Positions 5,125 to 34,582 of a stretch of DNA of 34,582 nt are shown one piece after another. Numbering within the stretch: the first letter of the stretch is position 1; every line of letters begins with the position of its first letter. The notes under the pieces are model-generated. The model was given only the letters and a program-made list of their open reading frames with translations. It was not told the origin of the DNA and made no database searches. The stretch comes from a virus: IMG/VR virus record IMGVR_UViG_3300024352_000065, positions 1-34,582 of that record, one strand, 5' to 3'. A program made the position numbers and the translations under genes.

Positions 5125-5532
5125 ATGGAAGATTTGCTTCGATTGGCTAAAGTGTTTCGCGCTGCTCAGATTGTGGCCCACGACGCGCACAACAATATTT
5201 CCGGGCCATCTTTCTTTGCCGACCATGAATTCCTGGGCGAGCTTTATGGGACCTATGAGGACGCCTATGATTCCCTCGTCGAACGGTATATTGGTCTGAC
5301 GGGACGATCCGTCGATGGCGTGTCATTAGCTAAAGATGCGCTTGAGCTTGCCCCGGATTCACAAGTGCAAGCGATCTGGGATATTTTGTCGATGTTTGAG
5401 CGCACCGTTTGCAAAGTTTGCTATGCTTTTTGTGAGAAAGAAGGCGTCTCGGAAGGCACGAAACAGCTGGTAGGGGAGCTTTGCAATCAAGCTGAGATGA
5501 GGCAATACAAGCTTAAGCAGCGCATGAGCTAA
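5125..5532 (+). CDS. Dps-like mini-ferritin (putative)
   Basis: The protein has 135 residues and is largely helical. The segment HNNISGPSFFADHEF with the following helix matches the Dps signature (HWNvkGpnF..lHe...). The spacing of ferroxidase ligands is the family one: H22, H34 twelve residues later, then D49 (+15) and E53 (+19). The acid normally four residues after the second His is Gly here (G38), with E39 next to it, so the site may be altered. Dps proteins form 12-subunit shells that oxidise and store iron and protect DNA. The protein is somewhat short for the family. A GAGG site precedes ATG 5125. It may protect phage DNA from peroxide; that is inference. Confidence 0.7.
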   Translation: MEDLLRLAKVFRAAQIVAHDAHNNISGPSFFADHEFLGELYGTYEDAYDSLVERYIGLTGRSVDGVSLAKDALELAPDSQVQAIWDILSMFERTVCKVCYAFCEKEGVSEGTKQLVGELCNQAEMRQYKLKQRMS

Positions 5533-5760: not shown

Positions 5761-6002
5761 ACGCGACAGAAGCGAAGGACCTTGCCGATCAAGTAAATTC
5801 TGCCAATCCAGAAAAGGCCATGCAGGAGGCTATGGCCGTGATCAAATTGGCCGCTGAAAAAGGCTTATATTCTGATTTGGTAGTCTTGCGTGAGGTGGAT
5901 GCCGAGGCTATTTTGCCCATCTTGAGCGTTTTGGGATACAAGACAGATGTGAAGGTAGCGGAATTGCCGGAAATGCGGCAAGTGTGGATTACTTGGGATT
6001 GA
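5757..6002 (+). CDS. Hypothetical 81-residue phage protein
   Basis: This small protein has an acidic helical N-terminus (MNATEAKDLADQVNSANPEK), a second helix, and a beta-like C-terminus built around LGYKTDVKVAELP and ending in VWITWD. The shape (two helices, a short 'LGY' element, a strand ending in a W or SW-type motif) recurs in small proteins of many phages, usually near accessory genes, without a known role. The gene starts on the stop of the preceding short frame. It is soluble, with no signal peptide. Confidence 0.6.
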   Translation: MNATEAKDLADQVNSANPEKAMQEAMAVIKLAAEKGLYSDLVVLREVDAEAILPILSVLGYKTDVKVAELPEMRQVWITWD

Positions 6003-6026
6003 TGTTAGAGAAAGGTGTGTTTTTAG

Positions 6027-6395
6027 ATGCAAAATAAGATTTTTGCTGGCTGCGATAGTGCCGGTCTATTTGATTTGTATGAGCATACAGACAACAAGCA
6101 CGATTTTTTACTTTCTGTCCGCCAGTTTAGGGACATGAAGACAAAAAATCTAAGGATCAAAAAAGCTCAAAAACATGCCGAGCACTTTTTAAAGATTGCT
6201 TTGAAAAAAGAACCCAAAAAAGGTGCGTTTTCAAGGGGTCAAATTGCAAAGGCTCTCATTGAGTCAGCTACTGAATCCGCTTGCAAAAACGGCTTACCCG
6301 CGAAAGATTACCGCGCTTTTATTACATCAAAATGCGGCAAGGACTTTTTGGAAATCGTTTGTACCAAATTGGGCTATCAAGAAGCTCTTGGATAA
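6027..6395 (+). CDS. Hypothetical 122-residue basic protein
   Basis: The protein is lysine-rich, especially residues 38-75 (KTKNLRIKKAQKHAEHFLKI), with a helical pattern throughout and three scattered cysteines. It starts at ATG 6027, with AAAGGTG upstream. The first codons resemble the abandoned start at 5634-5661 (a 14-base identity), so the two may share history. The charge suggests nucleic-acid or protein binding, but no domain is recognised. It lies in the accessory operon after the mini-ferritin gene. Confidence 0.55.
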   Translation: MQNKIFAGCDSAGLFDLYEHTDNKHDFLLSVRQFRDMKTKNLRIKKAQKHAEHFLKIALKKEPKKGAFSRGQIAKALIESATESACKNGLPAKDYRAFITSKCGKDFLEIVCTKLGYQEALG

Positions 6396-6403
6396 GGATT
6401 GTG

Positions 6404-6616
6404 ATGAGACATTTTCACTTTGATAACCCCGACGATTATTGGGCTTTGTTCAATAATTCCAGCGATCGAAACAAGCTTGTGACGGATATTAGCCTTTTTG
6501 CCACGTCCGATTTTGGAAACCGCTCGTCCGAAATGATGGACTATCAGCAGGCCGCCATGCAATGGCTGAAAGATTTTGTTGAAAACGGTTGCACTGAGAA
6601 GCAGGACGTGTTTTAA
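6404..6616 (+). CDS. Hypothetical 70-residue protein
   Basis: The start ATG 6404 was chosen for its AAGGA site six bases upstream and because longer in-frame versions overlap the previous gene heavily. The protein begins MRHFHFDNPDDYWALFNNSS and ends in an amphipathic helix (QQAAMQWLKDFVENG). It is acidic and soluble, and of no known family. It is the last gene of the plus-strand accessory operon; a strong hairpin terminator follows at 6657. Confidence 0.55.
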   Translation: MRHFHFDNPDDYWALFNNSSDRNKLVTDISLFATSDFGNRSSEMMDYQQAAMQWLKDFVENGCTEKQDVF

Positions 6617-10459: not shown

Positions 10460-10535
10460 TGCCAAGTAGCTCAGTCGGTAGAGCGTCGCGCTGTTAACGC
10501 GAATGTCGCAGGTTCGAGCCCTGCCTTGGCAGCCA
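10460..10535 (+). tRNA. tRNA-Asn (anticodon GTT) with encoded CCA
   Basis: A complete cloverleaf can be drawn: acceptor TGCCAAG pairs with CTTGGCA, the D arm contains AGCTCAGTCGGTAGAGC, the anticodon stem TCGCG/CGCGA holds loop CTGTTAA with anticodon GTT at 10493-10495, and the T arm GCAGG-TTCGAGC-CCTGC is canonical. The discriminator G and a genomic CCA end the gene. It reads AAC and AAT codons. It is the only tRNA in the window and stands apart from protein genes, between the leader hairpins and the CAP-protein gene. Phage tRNAs usually top up host supply or replace host tRNAs destroyed by defence nucleases. Confidence 0.97.
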
Positions 10536-10597: not shown

Positions 10598-11077
10598 ATG
10601 GTCCGGCGAATAGTGCTAGGTCTGGCGTTATTCCTACAAAGTACCGTGCTTTTAGCGGATTGCTACAAAACCGACATTGGGACATGTGGCGTGGAAAAGT
10701 CCATGCTCGAGGCCACCAATGCCTTTCGCGCTCAATACGGGCTTCCCGCTCTACAGTACAAAAAAGAGCTAAATTGGGCCGCTCGGAAATGGTCGGAAAG
10801 CATGGCTGCCACGGGTAGGCTGTCCCATGACGGCTTCCCTACCCTGCGCAATCAAACGATTATCCTCGAATTTCCCGCCAGTAATCAAAAAGTACACGGC
10901 GAAAATGTGGCCTATTTCCAAGGCTACAAACCGCCAGATTTTGGCCGATTTTTTGTGGATATGTGGATTAAAAGCGGACCCCATCGCCAGAACATGCTGC
11001 GAAATTTTCGCTTTATCGGTGTGGGATATGGGCGTAATAATGGGCAGCATTACGCGACACAACTTTTTGCTTGGTAA
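10598..11077 (+). CDS. Secreted CAP-domain (SCP/PR1-like) protein, likely intact site
   Basis: The 159-residue product is read from ATG 10598 with GGAGG six bases ahead. The first 20 residues are a signal peptide (MVRRIVLGLALFLQSTVLLA, cut before DCYK). The mature part has the CAP order: N-terminal helix with LEATNAFRAQYGLPAL, then LSHDGF, VHGENVAYF, and WIKSGPHRQNMLRNF followed by IGVGYG. The two His (SHDG, PHRQN) and the Glu of GEN are in the usual places of the CAP cleft. Bacterial CAP proteins are secreted and mostly of unknown function. A second CAP protein is encoded at 29872-30327. It may act in the cell envelope during lysis or entry. Confidence 0.85.
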   Translation: MVRRIVLGLALFLQSTVLLADCYKTDIGTCGVEKSMLEATNAFRAQYGLPALQYKKELNWAARKWSESMAATGRLSHDGFPTLRNQTIILEFPASNQKVHGENVAYFQGYKPPDFGRFFVDMWIKSGPHRQNMLRNFRFIGVGYGRNNGQHYATQLFAW

Positions 11078-11242: not shown

Positions 11243-11626
11243 ATGTTTTCTAGTAAAAGCAAAAGCAAGTTAATGAGTTGTCATCCTCAATTACAGCGCC
11301 TTTTCGATGAAGTTGTCAAGACTCATGATTGCACCATTTTGGAAGGACACAGGGACAAAAAGAGGCAGGATGATGCGTACAATGCGGGACTGAGTAAGCT
11401 AAAATTTCCTCACTCTAAACACAACCGCTACCCTTCCATGGCTGTTGACGTTATCCCCTACCCAATCGATTTTGCCGACGTTCCCAGAATCTATGAATTC
11501 GGTATTTTTGTGTGCGAAACAGCGAAACGCCTTGGTATCAAGATTCGTTGGGGGGGAGATTGGGATATGGACGGCGATTTTAAGGACCAAAAATTTAATG
11601 ATCTAGTCCACTTTGAAATCGTTTGA
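11243..11626 (+). CDS. L-alanyl-D-glutamate peptidase endolysin (M15 family)
   Basis: The 127-residue protein has the zinc pattern of VanY/M15 peptidases: H60 in SKHNRYPSMAVDV with D69, and H123 in LVHFEIV. RWGGDWDMDGD (102-112) before the last His is the usual lead-in. Phage members (for example T5 endolysin) cut the L-Ala-D-Glu bond of peptidoglycan. There is no signal peptide, so it needs a holin or similar to reach the wall. A strong AAAGGAGG site lies before ATG 11243. No holin lies next to it; candidates are the small membrane proteins at 13236-14019. It shares the plus-strand segment with the CAP protein. Confidence 0.9.
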   Translation: MFSSKSKSKLMSCHPQLQRLFDEVVKTHDCTILEGHRDKKRQDDAYNAGLSKLKFPHSKHNRYPSMAVDVIPYPIDFADVPRIYEFGIFVCETAKRLGIKIRWGGDWDMDGDFKDQKFNDLVHFEIV

Positions 11627-28500: not shown

Positions 28501-28539
28501 GCCGCGAAACGCTTTGATTTCAGGGTATGAGTAGGTCAA
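25504..28539 (-). CDS. Large tail protein (nozzle or tail-hub type)
   Basis: The 1011-residue protein opens with FSLPDGAMEQATNVVINDDN and LQKIRGFYSYY, a beginning typical of stopper, tail-tubular-B and P22 gp10-like proteins, where a propeller-like N-terminal part follows. The rest is beta-rich throughout, with many 'GxYxV' and 'ITVVSSAGN' type strands. It lies directly between adaptor and portal genes and is coupled by ATGA on both sides. It would form the tail tube or nozzle below the portal and adaptor rings. No enzymatic motif is seen. The length is on the large side for this role. Confidence 0.7.
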   Translation of the reverse strand: MTYSYPEIKAFRGLFAQPNTFSLPDGAMEQATNVVINDDNILQKIRGFYSYYPSGASTLNSLFTYQSRLMGVFNDKIVYFSDIGSEPNTIGTATPLSGHPVSITSPLVSRSIEQNGNLYFTSDTGILKTDSYNGTVFQAGTAGGLDCRGSFLPLNGPIPGDSQIAYRVCFGREDVNGNLILGAPSDIVPLTNAIQTRQSNGSLITWSRTSNVVTVTSAGHNLVNGMQITVVSSAGNQPVAAGSYIVSGVTANTFNIASNGNSDSSTLTWKTSRTALIEASIPDDITSVSQNYFIQIYRTTASNSETASPSADFKLIEQITLDNLSISKSVFSYQDTTDSVLLTNSTELYTNPNSREGELQANLRPPYCTDVTLFQNYVFYANCVARHVLNIDVIDTGGISDNDYIEIKVDATTRRYVARGGVGNQSVQSQTVTNASGYLRINYTGHGFLNGDTVFINFISGGTLAVDTYTVTNSLADSFELSQFGAGIPYNGEVYVYFQGVTNGTYPIFQYDKTSSSVGAQLRRTAQGLIKAINRDLPSLVYGNYVSAIDDTPGKIRISAEDFTGTIYLRGSSTGICNAFSLVLPTSFASGNQVFSKNNIQKNAVFISKVSEPEAVPVVNYLLVGSKNKAIKRIFALRDSVILLKEDGIFKITGNNIANFSVTPLDTTVIVLAENSGALLNNKVYFLGTQGICSATDSSVEILSRRIENFIEPILGQANLDSQTSAVSYESDRTYRISTLGYNSSTKSITYIYNSLNDTWTSSDYLFTAGVVGPSNKLFLVSNNKVLKERKYGNRLEFTGQNYLCVILTVNYDSKQALIQIAGHNPEIGDVIVYSDVINRIRSVENIGNDQFLVTFAKVPNLSPLLATQLYVNIPSTVVMAPFHGGTVGLGKQFAQIQLHTRSNNISRIKLTFQGQSLGGSQEAEWTETKVTGPTAGWGFAPWGLIGWGQADLLDAKVVTEPAPVVRIYVPLFQQRNTFIQAVMNHQEAAESLDIQTISWAIRAYRERVSK

Positions 28540-29474
28540 AAGTAATACCCTCCGCGAACGCGCCAGTAATTATACCCTCGCCCTCGCAGTAATCCGTTGC
28601 GGTTGATAATTTTAGTCTGCTCGCCCTCGATTCTTGGCTGAATGATCTTGAGCAAGTTTTTTTCTTGCGCTACGGCGTCTTTTTGCAGCGCTTGCGAGCC
28701 TTCATAGTCGCCAATAGCGTAAAGCACTCTGTCTGCAACACACGTCTCTAAAAGTTGCTGGGCCTCGTCCGGTAGCTGCATGACCGGCGATTCTTGCGCT
28801 AGAGCGATATAATCACCCACGCTCAAATCGGTGGGAACTGATCCGCTTGCAAATAGTAATTGGGTAGCCCCTGCGCTGCCTATGGCAACGTCATACGCCA
28901 AGGTGCTGCATCCTGCTTTGCCCTGGATGAAATCGACCAAAACACCCGCCTGAAAGGTGGTTGGACGAACGTCAATATTTACGATATCTCCACTGATACT
29001 TGTAACCTTTGCCGCTTTGTCCATGGTGACCATTTTATTTGGCTGCAAATTGAAAAACTGTCGCAGCAAATAAGTGTCAGCGTTTGGCTCAGGGCAAACC
29101 ATGATCGAGTCGCCAGAAAAATAAAACCCAGTAGGCAAGGTTTGTTGAACGAACAAATGCTCGTCTTCTAAGGCGATCAATCGCATATCAATAGTGCGAA
29201 TGTTGTCAAGACTTGCTTTAAGTTTGAGGTCCCTTAAAGCTCTGCCAATAGCTCTATAATGAATCGGGTACTTTCGTTGACCCTGATACATAGGAATATC
29301 GACGTAGGTCACAAAATAGTTCTGATTCGTCGATAAAAATAGAGGGACCATTTTGTCTCTGATCACGTCTGTGGCCAGATCGAGAAAATTTTGATCCGTC
29401 ATAAGGGGCTGATTTGCCGGAATAGTAATCCGACGTTTTAGCCCCTCTAAAAACCTGTCGGATGTTACCGTCAT
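28536..29474 (-). CDS. Head-tail adaptor / tail accessory protein
   Basis: The 312-residue protein starts helical (FLDLATDVIRDKMVPLFLST), then strands around YVDIPMYQGQRKYPIHYRAI and FYFSGDSIMVCPEPNADTYL, and closes with helices (LLETCVADRVLYAIGDYEGS, KDAVAQEKNLLKIIQPRIEG). This helix-strand-helix plan and the position one gene from the 1011-residue tail protein and two from the portal fit the adaptor ring beneath the portal (gp4- or gp11-type by role). The C-terminus is Arg/Tyr/Gly-rich (YNYWRVRGGYYF). Homology is not certain. Confidence 0.7.
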   Translation of the reverse strand: MTVTSDRFLEGLKRRITIPANQPLMTDQNFLDLATDVIRDKMVPLFLSTNQNYFVTYVDIPMYQGQRKYPIHYRAIGRALRDLKLKASLDNIRTIDMRLIALEDEHLFVQQTLPTGFYFSGDSIMVCPEPNADTYLLRQFFNLQPNKMVTMDKAAKVTSISGDIVNIDVRPTTFQAGVLVDFIQGKAGCSTLAYDVAIGSAGATQLLFASGSVPTDLSVGDYIALAQESPVMQLPDEAQQLLETCVADRVLYAIGDYEGSQALQKDAVAQEKNLLKIIQPRIEGEQTKIINRNGLLRGRGYNYWRVRGGYYF

Positions 29475-29854
29475 TTCATTTTACCTTGCAGTTTGGAAGA
29501 TTTCATGGGCATTTCTACGTTGCTTTTACCCGGTTGTCTTTTTTCAACCGCTGCGATAAATACGCCAGTACCATTTCGCGAGGCCGCTGGTTTTGGTTTG
29601 AAATAATCCCTCTTCATCTTCTGCAAATCACTCAATTCTTCCCCGCCTTCATCTTCTGCCAATTCATCTAATGGGCTTTTTTTCTCCAACGCCACGGCTT
29701 CCGAATCTTCGCCCGATACAGCGTCTTTGATTTCATCCATAATTTCGGCTTCGGACGTGCCCTCTGCCAACATGTCATAAATCAAATCCTTTAGCTCAGC
29801 GATCTTGGCAAGCTTTGCATCCATATCACCGCCCATTTCCATGTCCATTGGCAT
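29471..29854 (-). CDS. Met-rich acidic small virion-operon protein
   Basis: The protein has 127 residues. The N-terminus is unusually rich in Met, Asp and Gly (MPMDMEMGGDMDAKLAKIAE). A helical acidic region follows (IYDMLAEGTSEAEIMDEIKD), and then a basic Lys/Pro/Gln tail ending KLQGKMK. It is encoded between the CAP protein and the adaptor and is coupled to the latter by ATGA. It may be an assembly chaperone or minor core protein. No family recognised. Confidence 0.55.
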   Translation of the reverse strand: MPMDMEMGGDMDAKLAKIAELKDLIYDMLAEGTSEAEIMDEIKDAVSGEDSEAVALEKKSPLDELAEDEGGEELSDLQKMKRDYFKPKPAASRNGTGVFIAAVEKRQPGKSNVEMPMKSSKLQGKMK

Positions 29855-29871
29855 AATTCACCCCTATTCTA

Positions 29872-30327
29872 TCACTTTGGTTGAATACGAAAAACCACTA
29901 CCCATTTATCGCCTACGTGCGCCGTACCTATAGCCAGATTATCAGGATTTAGAAGGATTTTCTTGCCCCTAAAATCTCGCATCCATCGGAAAATAGCCGT
30001 CTCAGGAAGCTCGAAACCGCATCCAACTAGCTCCGCCTGGGCCTCGGTGCCACAATCTTTGGCTCTCTCTTCAAAAGTCGATCCATCAGATCCAGTATGA
30101 CCGCATGAACGAGAAATCATCAAATCTTTAGCATGACGATTAGCTGCACAAGTAAGCTCCGTCGTGGAAAGCAACAAAGGCAAGTCGTTTTGCGACCTGA
30201 CTTCATTAATCTCCACTTGCAAATCATCTAATCCAGGATACGGAGTCGGAATTGAATCAGATGGAGGTACTGGCATCAAAATTTGAGCATTGGCAATTGA
30301 TGCTAGAAAAAGTTTTGCCAACATCAT
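29872..30327 (-). CDS. Secreted CAP-domain (SCP/PR1-like) protein with altered site
   Basis: The 151-residue product is read from ATG 30327 (GGAG eight bases ahead). The first 15 residues (MMLAKLFLASIANAQ) are a short signal peptide. CAP elements follow in order: INEVRSQNDLPLLL, ANRHAKDLM, CGHTGSDGSTFEE, AQAELVGCG, and FRWMRDFRGKKILLNPDNLA with IGTAHVG. The first His is present, but where active CAP proteins have 'GHR.NIL' this one has GKKIL, so the second His is lost, and 'GEN' has become AEL. Cysteines at CGHTG, KDCG and VGCG may form disulphides. It sits among tail genes, so it may be virion-linked; this is inference. Confidence 0.8.
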   Translation of the reverse strand: MMLAKLFLASIANAQILMPVPPSDSIPTPYPGLDDLQVEINEVRSQNDLPLLLSTTELTCAANRHAKDLMISRSCGHTGSDGSTFEERAKDCGTEAQAELVGCGFELPETAIFRWMRDFRGKKILLNPDNLAIGTAHVGDKWVVVFRIQPK

Positions 30328-30361: not shown

Positions 30362-33300
30362 TTACAAGGTACTGCTGAGTAGCGTACTACCAAACAAAGC
30401 AGGTGCAAGCTCTGCAGAGGCTGTACTTGCTACAAAATGCCACCTAGCTTGTGACGATTGTTGTGTTGGTGCAAAATAAATTCGGTTTTGAGTAGGTGCA
30501 TAACTACCGCCTTGATAACCAGCAGTCAATGCCGTTACTCCATGAGCATACGCTACAACGCTACCAGTTGCGCAATCAATGTAGTGCCAGTTGGTTTGAC
30601 TCGCTTGCTCATAGGGTACGAAATAGATACGGTTTTGAGTCGGAGAATACACCCCGCCATGATATGCCTCATATACCGCCGTTACTCCATGAGCATAAGC
30701 TACAACACTACCAGTTGAGCAATCGACGTAGTGCCAGTTTGCCACGTTCCCTTGTGTAGCTGGAACAAAATAAATGCGGTTTTGAGTCGGGGAATACACT
30801 GCTCCTTGGTACGCAAATGATGCCGCTGTTACTCCGTGAGCATATGCTACAACGCTACCCGTTGAGCAATCGATGTAATGCCAGTTCGTCTGGGTAGCTT
30901 GTCCCAATGGAGATAAGTAGATCCGATTTTGAGTCGGCGAATATCCGCCTGTTACATACGCAAACGCTACTGCTGATATTCCATGAGCATAGGCTACAAC
31001 GCTACCCGTTGCGCAATTTATGTAGTGCCAGTTCGTTTGGTTTGATTGTCCATAAGGTACTAGATAAATCCTATTTTGGGTCGGGGAATAAACTCCGCCA
31101 GCATAACCATTGGCTACTGCTGTTATTCCGTGAGCATAAGCCACAACACTACCAGTTGAGCAATCGATGTAATGCCAGTTCGTTTGGTTTGATTGTGCAT
31201 TAGGCACCAAATAGATACGGTTTTGTGTTGGGGAATAAACTCCCCCCCAATATGCGTCTGCTACTGCTGTTACTCCGTGAGCATAAGCCACAACGCTACC
31301 CGTTGCGCAATCAATGTAATGCCAGTTCGTCTGGTTAGCTTGTTGCGAAGGAATCAAATAGATTCGGTTTTGGCTTGGGGAATAGACTGCACCGTTGTAT
31401 GCATTGAGGACCGTCGTGACACCATTAATATACGTAGCAATTCTTTGCCTGGCGTTAACATTCTTGACGTGCAGATTTACGATCTGATCTAAATACTGGT
31501 TAATGTTTTGTGTACCAGTATCGCTTGGAAGTACGTTAACGCTTCCAATCCCTCCAAACAAAGCCCACGTATTATTTGCTCGACCTTCGAATGTTTTCAA
31601 ATCAGTGTTGTAACGCATCATCCCGTCAACTGGAGACACTGGCCTATCAGCTGTGGCCCCAGATGCGATTTTAATAAATCCCGTACCGTTCTGCGTCGAA
31701 TTACCTGAAATGGTCAAAGTATCAGCTGTAGAATCACCAAGTATCGTGTTTCCAGTAACATTCAATGTCACTGCATTGACAGTCGTACCGCCTACAGTTG
31801 GGGATGAAATCGAAGTTGCTGTGATTGTCCCCACAACATCTAGAGCTTGTGTCGGTGTTACCGTACCGATACCAACACGGTTATTAACAGCATCAATCAC
31901 CAAAGTATTTGCATCAAAATTGAGATTATTGGGAATCAAAATGGAATTGGCCTGAATCGTCACCGTATCCGTCGACGCATCACCTAACGTAGTATTGCCA
32001 TCGATTCTCACATTCCCATTAACATGCAATAGCTCAGATGGAGTCGTGCCAATACCAACACGACCACTACTATCAATACGCATACTCTCAAGAGGTGGTC
32101 CACCCGCAAAGTTGGTTATCGTATTAAATACGACTCGACCACCAATGAACGCATTGGCACCGTCTATGTAATCAACAGCAGCTATGATTTGAGCCGCTCT
32201 ACCAAATCCAACTCCATCGGCAAAACTTCCGGCAAATTCTAATGTCCCAAGATTAGTGTTGACAGTGACTAATCCGCCAGTGCCAATTGTATTACTATTG
32301 CTTTTCGTAAACAAAACCTTGCTCGAGGAAATTGCTGTCGTGCTCCAAGAGCTTAAGGACATAGGGAAGTTTCCATGAATCTGAAATTCCGCTTGCCCAC
32401 CTATCCCTACCCAATCAGTTGATATGGATCTGTTTTTGAGAATCCTACCATTTGTATCAATGACAAATGGGGATGTATCTGGGCTTGCAGAATCCTCGAC
32501 AACAAAACAATCGGAAGCTCCCGTGTTTGTTATCGTCATGTTGCCGAATACGTGCATCGTGCTAGTTGGGGAAGCAATCCCAACACCTACTCTATTATTT
32601 GCTGCGTCTACTACTAAGGTATTGCTATCAAAATTCAAACCATTGGGAATCGTAATTGCTGTTCCCTGAATCGTCATTACATCAGTCGATGCATCGCCAA
32701 ACTGCGTGTTGCCGTTCACCGTTAAGTCAGTGGACACTTTGGCAGCGCCTACAACGTCCAAAGCGACCGTTGGAGAAGCAATACCTACGCCGACCCTATT
32801 GTTAGCTGCGTCGATTACAAGTGTGTTGGAATCAAAATTAAGGCCATTTGGTAGTGTAACAGCTGTGCCATTGATAGTCAGAACGTCGCTTGCGCCATCT
32901 CCAAGCGCCGTGTTGCCGCTAGAGTTCAGCGATACGGCATTAACCGTTGTAGCCGCGACAGTTGTGGCAGTCACGGTGCCAGATACATCTAGAGCGGTTG
33001 TCGGAGAAGTATTACCAATCCCAACGCGATTCGTCGAAGCGTTGATGAAAAGCGTATTACTGTCAATATTCAAATTATTGGGTATGGATACTGCAAGGGA
33101 GTTAATTGTAAGCGCATCACTTGACTGATCTCCCAAAGTTACGCCGCCGTTTAGCGCCGTTGCTCCATTAATTGTCAAAGCACCGCTAGTGTTAATTGCT
33201 GTCGATCCGCCAATTGTGCCACTAGTAATAGCGTCTCCGCTTACCTTTCCAGGTGTCGAGATGACTCCTGAAATGTCTGCATCGACTACTTGGCCAGGAG

Positions 33301-33733
33301 GTATCATGTAATTAATTATTTTCCAGTCAGTACCACCGCCAAAGTATTGCAGCCAAACAACTTGCCGATCTTTATTCATCACAAGTTGCTCTGCACCCGC
33401 GATTGTATCCGTGCCCAGAGGATAAATTGTAATGTTGTCGATTGATGCATTACCCTTGCCGTCTACAATCGCAAAAATACGTCCGGGTAATCCCGCTGGA
33501 AGGTTAACCGTCACGGGAGTAAAGGCATCTAAATTTGTCACGATGGCAAAGTCAGCCATATCAGATATGACGACCGGGCTCACAGTCGCCACGCGAATGG
33601 CCTGCTTCATCTCATCAGCGATTGCCGCTTTCTGGCCAAGAGCGACGAGGAAATTTGTCAAACTCGGCCAATTAATTTCCCCGGCTTGTGGGATTGAATA
33701 TGTTGTGCCATCCCATGTGACGCTGATAGCCAT
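30362..33733 (-). CDS. Long tail fibre with seven-repeat propeller-like tip
   Basis: The 1123-residue product is read from ATG 33733 (GAGGAAAAAA just ahead). The N-terminal 150 residues (SVTWDGTTYSIPQAGEINWP) resemble the virion-binding parts of tail fibres. The middle repeats a module with 'LDVxGxxxATxxxA', 'GNTxLGDxSxDxLTI', 'IPNxLNFDSNTLVID' and 'NNRVGVGIxSPT' several times, a trimeric shaft pattern. From about residue 770 to 1100 there are seven 49-residue repeats with YSPTQNRIY and NWHYIDC cores. No S74 peptidase or glycan hydrolase is visible. It would bind the host receptor. Transcribed downstream of the coat gene past its terminator. Confidence 0.87.
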   Translation of the reverse strand: MAISVTWDGTTYSIPQAGEINWPSLTNFLVALGQKAAIADEMKQAIRVATVSPVVISDMADFAIVTNLDAFTPVTVNLPAGLPGRIFAIVDGKGNASIDNITIYPLGTDTIAGAEQLVMNKDRQVVWLQYFGGGTDWKIINYMIPPGQVVDADISGVISTPGKVSGDAITSGTIGGSTAINTSGALTINGATALNGGVTLGDQSSDALTINSLAVSIPNNLNIDSNTLFINASTNRVGIGNTSPTTALDVSGTVTATTVAATTVNAVSLNSSGNTALGDGASDVLTINGTAVTLPNGLNFDSNTLVIDAANNRVGVGIASPTVALDVVGAAKVSTDLTVNGNTQFGDASTDVMTIQGTAITIPNGLNFDSNTLVVDAANNRVGVGIASPTSTMHVFGNMTITNTGASDCFVVEDSASPDTSPFVIDTNGRILKNRSISTDWVGIGGQAEFQIHGNFPMSLSSWSTTAISSSKVLFTKSNSNTIGTGGLVTVNTNLGTLEFAGSFADGVGFGRAAQIIAAVDYIDGANAFIGGRVVFNTITNFAGGPPLESMRIDSSGRVGIGTTPSELLHVNGNVRIDGNTTLGDASTDTVTIQANSILIPNNLNFDANTLVIDAVNNRVGIGTVTPTQALDVVGTITATSISSPTVGGTTVNAVTLNVTGNTILGDSTADTLTISGNSTQNGTGFIKIASGATADRPVSPVDGMMRYNTDLKTFEGRANNTWALFGGIGSVNVLPSDTGTQNINQYLDQIVNLHVKNVNARQRIATYINGVTTVLNAYNGAVYSPSQNRIYLIPSQQANQTNWHYIDCATGSVVAYAHGVTAVADAYWGGVYSPTQNRIYLVPNAQSNQTNWHYIDCSTGSVVAYAHGITAVANGYAGGVYSPTQNRIYLVPYGQSNQTNWHYINCATGSVVAYAHGISAVAFAYVTGGYSPTQNRIYLSPLGQATQTNWHYIDCSTGSVVAYAHGVTAASFAYQGAVYSPTQNRIYFVPATQGNVANWHYVDCSTGSVVAYAHGVTAVYEAYHGGVYSPTQNRIYFVPYEQASQTNWHYIDCATGSVVAYAHGVTALTAGYQGGSYAPTQNRIYFAPTQQSSQARWHFVASTASAELAPALFGSTLLSSTL
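30440..31415 (-). repeat. Seven 147-bp repeats encoding a propeller-like fibre end
   Basis: The anchor point (the CAT start of 'catgagcata' or its variants) recurs at 30541, 30688, 30835, 30982, 31129 and 31276, exactly 147 bases apart, with a degenerate copy near 31423. Each unit encodes 49 residues: 'AY.GG.YSPTQNRIY..P..Q..QTNWHYIDC.TGSVVAYAHG.TA'-like. The copies differ at many silent positions, so they are not fresh duplicates. Residues after 'AY' and in the 'P..Q' loop vary most between copies. Confidence 0.9.
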
Positions 33734-33745
33734 TTTTTTCCTCAA

Positions 33746-33795: not shown

Positions 33796-34582
33796 TCAGG
33801 TAGCAGATTCGTCGTTAATGCCAGTGATTAGCAAGTTTTGGTTGGGCTCAGGAGTGAAAATGTACTCATCAGCGTAAGATTTGAACTGATAACCCGCTTG
33901 GTTTTCCAAGGGACGGATCAAATCGCCGTTGTCATCCATTCCAGGAACTTTGAACCCCACTTGAGCGGAACCCGATCTTTTCCAGGTCTCAGTTCTCAAA
34001 GCGAAGGCATATCCTTCCTTCATACATCTATGCGCCTTGATAGTGAGCTTACCGGTCTGTGTGTAGTACTCGATATCCCGGAAACCGTTTTGAGCTTGGG
34101 AAGGAGAGTAAGATTTGTCATACACACGAAGGCCCGCTTCGGTATTGGACAAGGTAGACCAAGAACGTGGGTTTACATACACGTTTACGTCGCCTTCCAA
34201 ACCACCGCCGTTTACTGCATCGGCAAGAGCGTCTTGCAGTCTGGCAAGAGTAAGCTTCACGCCAGTTGCAGCGCCGTTGCTGATATCAGCGACGTTACCC
34301 TTAAAGAGAGGGTATTGAGCGCTGTTGATGCCAAACAACGTGCCAGTATTTGCCAGGATTGCATGAATACCGACCATTTCCCCGTAACCTTCTTGACCGT
34401 CGAAGCACAAACGGACAGACCCAGATCCAGAGACTGCGCTTGGTGCGACAGGCACAAAGTCAACGGTGATATAACCATAACGGGAGTTGTAACCAGTGAG
34501 CTTACCAGAGGCCAAAACTGCCCCGGTCGAGCTTACTTGTTTCACTTTCACGCCGATCATACCAACCCAAAAACCGGCCTCA
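33796..34582 (-). CDS. Major capsid protein, C-terminal part (5' end cut by the contig end)
   Basis: The open frame enters from the right end and ends at 33796. It is the same gene as the fragment at 1-702; bases 34438-34582 repeat bases 1-145. From the join on it adds 213 residues, with FGINSAQYPLFKGNVADISN, DVNVYVNPRSWSTLSNTEAG and the closing FKSYADEYIFTPEPNQNLLI. The last parts (around RDIEYYTQTGKLTIKAHR) resemble coat C-terminal domains where strands of the P and A domains alternate with short helices. A terminator follows. Confidence 0.82.
   Translation of the reverse strand, partial: EAGFWVGMIGVKVKQVSSTGAVLASGKLTGYNSRYGYITVDFVPVAPSAVSGSGSVRLCFDGQEGYGEMVGIHAILANTGTLFGINSAQYPLFKGNVADISNGAATGVKLTLARLQDALADAVNGGGLEGDVNVYVNPRSWSTLSNTEAGLRVYDKSYSPSQAQNGFRDIEYYTQTGKLTIKAHRCMKEGYAFALRTETWKRSGSAQVGFKVPGMDDNGDLIRPLENQAGYQFKSYADEYIFTPEPNQNLLITGINDESAT
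34438..34582. repeat. Right copy of the 145-bp contig-end repeat
   Basis: It matches bases 1-145 with two differences (34549 C for T; 34580 T for G). The frame of the coat gene continues through it without a break, which fixes the join and the circular unit at about 34,437 bp. Confidence 0.93.

Follow-up and report, generated by a model that had tools for sequence, protein, structure and literature searches.

A predicted secreted CAP protein with a degenerate cleft encoded behind a phage tail fibre gene, a tentative candidate for superinfection exclusion

Proteins with a CAP domain occur across all life, and their basic biochemical role is disputed. Among phages, Slash (PMC3861416) and Stills (PMC4541274), both phages of Bacillus, encode secreted LysM-CAP proteins, to which their descriptions attach no known role. 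In phage T5, llp adjoins the receptor-binding gene on its downstream side, and its product is described as acting from the periplasm and as containing an intramolecular disulfide (PMC9586334). A CAP domain is also part of PrgA, the conjugation surface-exclusion protein of plasmid pCF10, which is presented as a long stalked cell-wall protein that also has a protease domain (PMC10588982). Exported genes behind a receptor-binding gene, as in the case of T5 Llp, and secreted phage CAPs, as in Slash and Stills, are therefore both of kinds already known, and the open-licence PMC literature yielded no report of a phage tail operon that encodes a CAP protein.

The DNA compared with these systems, called the window here, comprises all 34,582 bases of a virus record in IMG/VR. 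It encodes a terminase, a portal, an SU10-type capsid protein, a fibre, RecT and a Gp157-like protein, as well as a Holliday-junction resolvase and an M15-type endolysin. Its ends (1-145 and 34438-34582) repeat each other at 99% and cut through the capsid gene; given this terminal repeat of 145 bases, the window is probably near a whole genome, which is probably circular or circularly permuted. A gene of the early region (5125-5532) resembles those of DNA-binding starvation-type (Dps-like) proteins (phrog_3636, phrog_858).

The window carries two CAP genes, CAP1 and CAP2, which are listed in Table 1 with their parts and neighbours. CAP2 starts 34 nt after the fibre stop codon and is followed, after 17 nt, by the gene of a 127-aa protein and then by that of a 312-aa protein. 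Two further IMG/VR records, G001 and G002, hold orthologues, 79 and 52% identical to CAP2, respectively. In these three phages the gap to the fibre or fibre-accessory gene upstream is 34, 7 and 9 nt, and the gap to the next gene downstream is 17, 17 and 27 nt. CAP2 thus lies directly downstream of the putative receptor-binding gene in all three, as do the genes of the Llp/Cor type. Promoter-like and terminator-like sites around CAP2 are not commoner than in shuffled sequences, which, together with the short gaps, indicates that the gene belongs to the late operon. It had originally been placed between a fibre and an adaptor gene: the first neighbour is as described, but the 127-aa gene intervenes on the other side, and since the 312-aa protein found no named family in sequence library searches, the name "adaptor" reflects its position. 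The C-terminal part of the fibre (30436-31470) contains overlapping 147-nt (49-aa) direct repeats that are 65-74% alike; judged from their sequence, they resemble β-propeller blades and may form the receptor-binding part.

Table 1. Coordinates of CAP2, its parts, its neighbours and the other CAP genes discussed (window positions, except where an L number is given)
Feature	Position	Strand	Basis or remark
CAP2 gene, 151 aa	29872..30327	(-)	ORF, Pfam CAP match, AlphaFold2 model
Predicted signal peptide of CAP2, residues 1-14, MMLAKLFLASIANA, cleavage before Q15	30286..30327	(-)	read from sequence, hydrophobicity
CAP domain of CAP2, residues 33-149	29881..30231	(-)	pLDDT >85 from about residue 31; VIA-align ranges
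Gly121 codon of CAP2, at the position of the second cleft His of other CAPs	29965..29967	(-)	23-row alignment
Tail fibre gene, upstream of CAP2; 49-aa repeats in C-terminal part	30362..33745	(-)	phrog_9942 tail fiber 4e-19
127-aa acidic protein, directly 3' of CAP2	29471..29854	(-)	ORF
312-aa protein, "adaptor" of the original prediction	28536..29474	(-)	function from position only
CAP1, predicted exported CAP, full H..E..H cleft, early region	10598..11077	(+)	Pfam CAP 55 bits
Endolysin (M15-type), directly 3' of CAP1	11243..11626	(+)	phrog_465 endolysin 4.4e-30
G010 tandem CAP pair	L028:5598-6044 + 6001-6501		genes overlap 44 nt
G014 tandem CAP pair	L029:5522-5995 + 6001-6435		5 nt apart

CAP2 consists of a signal-peptide-like start, a PPxDxxPTPYPG linker and a CAP domain with a degenerate cleft. 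Its start codon is ATG, and a TTG two codons further 5' likewise lies in the open frame. CAP2 matched the Pfam CAP family (PF00188) at 27.9 bits, above the curated cut-off of 21.1, as expected of a member of the superfamily; searches of phage records yielded only three weak matches (26-28% identity). An AlphaFold2 model from a 3-row alignment of CAP2 had a pLDDT of 52 and was set aside. With a 23-row alignment of CAP sequences from the window and viral contigs (omitting L044, L045 and L048, whose CAPs repeat L042 or L041), pLDDT rose to 87.9, with a pTM of 0.75. As all 23 rows are CAP sequences by design, this model is not blind to the CAP idea; the assignment has independent support, since CAP2 alone was matched in Pfam. 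The model has the α-β-α arrangement of CAP proteins, and a fold unlike CAP, which the original prediction had named as counting against it, is thus not what was obtained. Accordingly, CAP2 is regarded as a genuine gene whose product has a confidently modelled CAP fold.

Among solved structures, bacterial CAP domains match the model best, with 4ifa at Z 19.7 (1.3 Å over 117 residues), BB0689 (4d53) at 17.2 and SAV1118 (4h0a) at 15.9; GAPR-1 (Z 13.6) and plant PR-1 both match at about 13.6. These bacterial CAP/SCP domains of the YkwD type resemble CAP2 in fold, in export, which is predicted for CAP2, and in the first His and the Glu of the cleft, except that SAV1118, whose cleft is incomplete too, lacks the first His and the Glu in the alignment. 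CAP2 differs from them as a lone 151-aa phage protein with four Cys and without the second His, at 20-28% identity. The CAP domain of PrgA (6z9k, 6z9l), an exclusion protein of a mobile element, also matches the model (Z 10.4-11.2, the higher value for 6z9l); in contrast to PrgA, CAP2 comprises a single domain, whose cleft is degenerate. The Slash and Stills proteins share with CAP2 that they are phage-encoded and, by prediction for CAP2, secreted; they have LysM and come from possibly temperate phages of Gram-positive hosts, whereas CAP2 has no LysM and is encoded behind a fibre gene.

In the alignment column of the second cleft His, CAP2 has Gly121, and its orthologues in G001 and G002 have Gly and Ser, so that the loss of the second His, originally read from the motif GKKIL, holds for all three. 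The first cleft His (H77) and the Glu (E99) are retained by all three orthologues and are near-invariant across the 23 rows. The 14 other viral CAPs in these rows were picked with a motif that contains the second His, and therefore have it by selection. None of the three therefore has the full cleft of two His and a Glu, and CAP2 is also devoid of the GHRxN motif. Because the second His is gone, metal binding or catalysis as proposed for full-cleft CAPs appears unlikely for CAP2.

A signal-like N-terminus ending in AxA or AxG before Gln can be read in all three orthologues: the predicted cleavage site of CAP2 (MMLAKLFLASIANA followed by Q) has counterparts with other letters but the same layout, AFA before Q and AFG before Q. 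With ANA, AFA and AFG at this site, none of the three has the lipobox Cys that marks lipoproteins of the Llp/Cor type. Four Cys (C60, C75, C92 and C103) are invariant in the three orthologues. Cys makes up 4 of the 136 residues of mature CAP2 (2.9%) and 29 of 6,557 residues (0.44%) in the other structural-side proteins, and the probability of four or more Cys arising by chance in mature CAP2 is 0.003. The signal-like N-terminus and the kept, enriched Cys make it likely that CAP2 is exported from the cytoplasm and forms disulfides, in line with the role outside the cytoplasm that the original prediction had proposed.

How the place behind the fibre is used in other phages bears on what kind of gene CAP2 is. 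Portal searches added 15 related viral records and a Silvanigrella-associated phage to the window, giving 17 records in all; this phage is the sole named relative (37% portal identity), and portal and CAP2 profiles found no relative in genome_contigs. The slot, bounded by the fibre cluster on one side and the small gene on the other, was inspected by eye and could be judged in 15 of the 17, G007 being rearranged and G011 ending before the slot. It holds CAP2 in three records (the window, G001 and G002), a lipoprotein family unrelated to CAP2 in three (G004, G005 and G009) and putative small membrane proteins in two (G006 and G008), and it is empty in the other seven (G003, G010, G012, G013, G014, G015 and the Silvanigrella phage). 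The three phages with CAP2 group together on a single branch of a portal tree, in which the records with a slot lipoprotein are spread over three separate branches. The occurrence of CAP2, lipoproteins and membrane proteins in the slot suggests that it is used for envelope-targeted cargo; it is a site where unrelated envelope-directed genes come and go.

The slot lipoproteins (L008:4491-5468, L009:3-839 and L018:4741-5658) are about 305-325 aa long, and four Cys are conserved in all three. Two comparisons gave identities of 33 and 37%. The G005 protein starts outside its record, where its lipobox is out of view, and this record has a second copy of the gene. Scans of two of these lipoproteins gave no convincing Pfam or PHROG match, and a search with one gave no match in phage records. 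None of the 17 records has both a slot lipoprotein and a CAP; however, such a pattern has a probability of 0.32 by chance, so that no weight is placed on a mutual exclusion of the two.

If CAP2 blocked a receptor matched to the fibre of its own phage, it would be expected to diverge along with the fibre tip. The fibre tips of G001 and G002 are identical (100% over 456 aa), as are their 353-aa fibre accessory proteins (100%), and their CAP2 proteins are 53% identical; conversely, the tips of the window phage and G001 are 39% identical over 203 aa, and their CAP2 proteins 79%. The identity of CAP2 instead parallels that of the downstream small, 312-aa and 1011-aa proteins. That CAP2 divergence does not track the tip argues against a receptor-matched blocker and weakens this form of exclusion, but it does not weigh against a later block at a shared step. 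The accessory protein (L001:6326-7387 and L006:3428-4489) and the fibre tip encoded before it are identical in G001 and G002, although differences of 5-48% are seen in CAP2 and several other genes, which points to a recent exchange of the whole tip.

CAP1, the intact CAP reported from elsewhere in the window, is indeed present, and it is also found in G002. The protein has just two Cys, neither corresponding to any of the four in CAP2, and a search of phage records gave no match to it. In both CAP1 phages a complete tRNA-Asn (GTT) lies just 5' of the gene (window 10460-10535; L031:4822-4897). The original prediction had proposed a comparison of the two CAPs for a common origin. They are about 19% identical in the 23-row alignment, and in a tree of the 23 CAPs, some of whose end branches are long, a branch with support of 98/94 parts the CAP2 proteins and the members of the pairs in G010 and G014 from CAP1 and 14 viral CAPs. 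Both results rule out that CAP2 is a recent duplicate of CAP1.

The nearest kin of CAP2 are four-Cys CAPs from adjacent early-region gene pairs in two related phages (G010 and G014), which have neither CAP1 nor a CAP2 in the slot. In each pair one member is anchored in the membrane at its N-terminus and the other is secreted. The secreted member has a full cleft; that of the anchored member is incomplete, with the first His and the Glu replaced in G010 and the second His missing in G014. The secreted members keep the four Cys of CAP2, and that of G010 also has a PVPP linker. These two and the three CAP2 proteins share C60, C75, C92, C103, H77, E99 and a common branch, and make up the four-Cys phage CAPs, a group defined in this analysis. 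The anchored members, which keep four and three of the group Cys in the alignment, fit it more poorly.

Five of the 17 related records carry CAPs. Four of them have two each, one full-cleft and one incomplete, and the fifth (G001) is a partial record of 24.5 kb. The sequences are consistent with a pairing of CAP2 with an intact CAP. The full CAP motif was also found in 17 other viral contigs, each with one Pfam CAP. As this motif includes the second His, full clefts in these contigs arise by selection, and several of the contigs are short fragments in which an incomplete CAP could be missed, so that the contrast with the pairs is weak. In some of them, secreted full-cleft CAPs adjoin capsid genes, by a major-head-protein match in L043 and L041 and by layout only in L037, L038 and L040; in L036 and L046 they adjoin RecT or RecE genes. 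The window phage is thus not the only one to have a structural operon with a signal-bearing CAP.

It follows from the programs used that CAP2 is a gene with a predicted CAP fold, under selection, with a lost cleft and conserved Cys, located behind the fibre in a slot that holds non-homologous exported genes in other phages; from these, we infer export, disulfides, co-transcription and non-catalytic binding. CAP2 probably acts on the host envelope rather than as a part of the virus particle. The reading that we favour, with a probability of roughly 0.4, is that it is a late, Sec-exported, disulfide-stabilised, non-catalytic envelope binder, most likely for superinfection exclusion. CAP2 would be co-transcribed with the tail genes and expressed late; the host Sec pathway would export it, its first 14 residues would be cleaved off, and its folding in the periplasm would involve up to two disulfides. 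It would probably work by binding some target of the infected cell's envelope, most likely thereby occupying a component that a second incoming phage needs, as T5 Llp does. The likeness to Llp/Cor is that of a small, presumably exported protein encoded directly 3' of a receptor-binding gene; CAP2 departs from them in its CAP fold and in having neither a lipobox nor co-variation with the fibre tip. PrgA, which provides surface exclusion and whose CAP domain matches the model, is a second precedent. Superinfection exclusion, rather than another role in the envelope, is of low certainty. To our knowledge, no CAP protein has been found to block phage entry, which counts against it.

The main rival is a role in lysis together with CAP1, in which exported CAP1 as the active protein and CAP2 as a binding or regulatory one would act late on peptidoglycan or the envelope. 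Although unlikely, it draws on several observations. In the window and in G002, the two records with CAP1, the M15-type endolysin gene lies directly 3' of it, and full-cleft and incomplete CAPs co-occur in most CAP-carrying records, as noted above. On the other hand, a long distance separates CAP2 from the endolysin gene, the two lie on opposite strands and in different operons, and endolysins of the same family occur in G004 and G008 without any CAP. We also know of no CAP protein that is a proven peptidoglycan hydrolase. Finally, the CAP proteins of Slash and Stills are encoded with LysM, which binds peptidoglycan (PMC3861416, PMC4541274), in keeping with a function at the cell wall.

Rather less probable is that CAP2 is moron-like secreted cargo that serves extracellular or general envelope physiology, apart from entry or lysis. 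Secreted CAPs do recur among viruses, as the 17 contigs with the full motif illustrate, and in its genome report the Slash CAP is termed a potential lysogenic conversion gene (PMC3861416). In Rhodobacter sphaeroides, insertions with a raised lipid content include one in a gene for a secreted YkwD-type CAP (PMC5442454). However, a tyrosine integrase, the type that the search covered, is absent from all 16 IMG/VR records, which argues against a lysogeny gene, and CAP2 is tightly packed in the late operon, with no sign beyond chance of a promoter or terminator of its own.

Doubtful to a similar extent is a two-part system, in which a full-cleft and a cleft-defective CAP would be co-exported and form a heterodimer in the envelope, the defective partner targeting or regulating the active one. 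The arrangement is found at two places in the phage tree: in G010 and G014 the two early genes adjoin each other, and in the window and G002 one gene is early and the other belongs to the tail operon.

That CAP2 is a virion protein, a tail part that aids envelope crossing, is improbable, and the original suggestion of a virion-linked part goes unsupported. CAP2 does sit between fibre and tail genes in its three closest phages, and its divergence tracks that of the tail genes downstream. However, a signal-like N-terminus and conserved Cys speak against a virion role, and 12 of the 17 related records have no CAP at all, with tail genes otherwise alike in layout. Since other exported genes occupy the same slot in related phages, gene position is a weak ground for such a role. 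A decaying, functionless former CAP gene, to which the lost second His and the absence of CAP2 from most relatives might point, is ruled out for practical purposes by a dN/dS of 0.08-0.10 between the window and G001 (two methods), which at about 0.1 against the nearest relative speaks against decay, by the invariance of the four Cys, H77 and E99 at 52-79% identity, and by a frame that is open in all three phages.

The comparison points to a cargo slot behind the fibre gene of this phage group, in which exported proteins of unrelated families take each other's place. This slot is a practical hunting ground for undescribed superinfection-exclusion proteins, and small phage CAPs that have lost the cleft, together with their full-cleft partners, form a compact system that could allow binding to be separated from catalysis.
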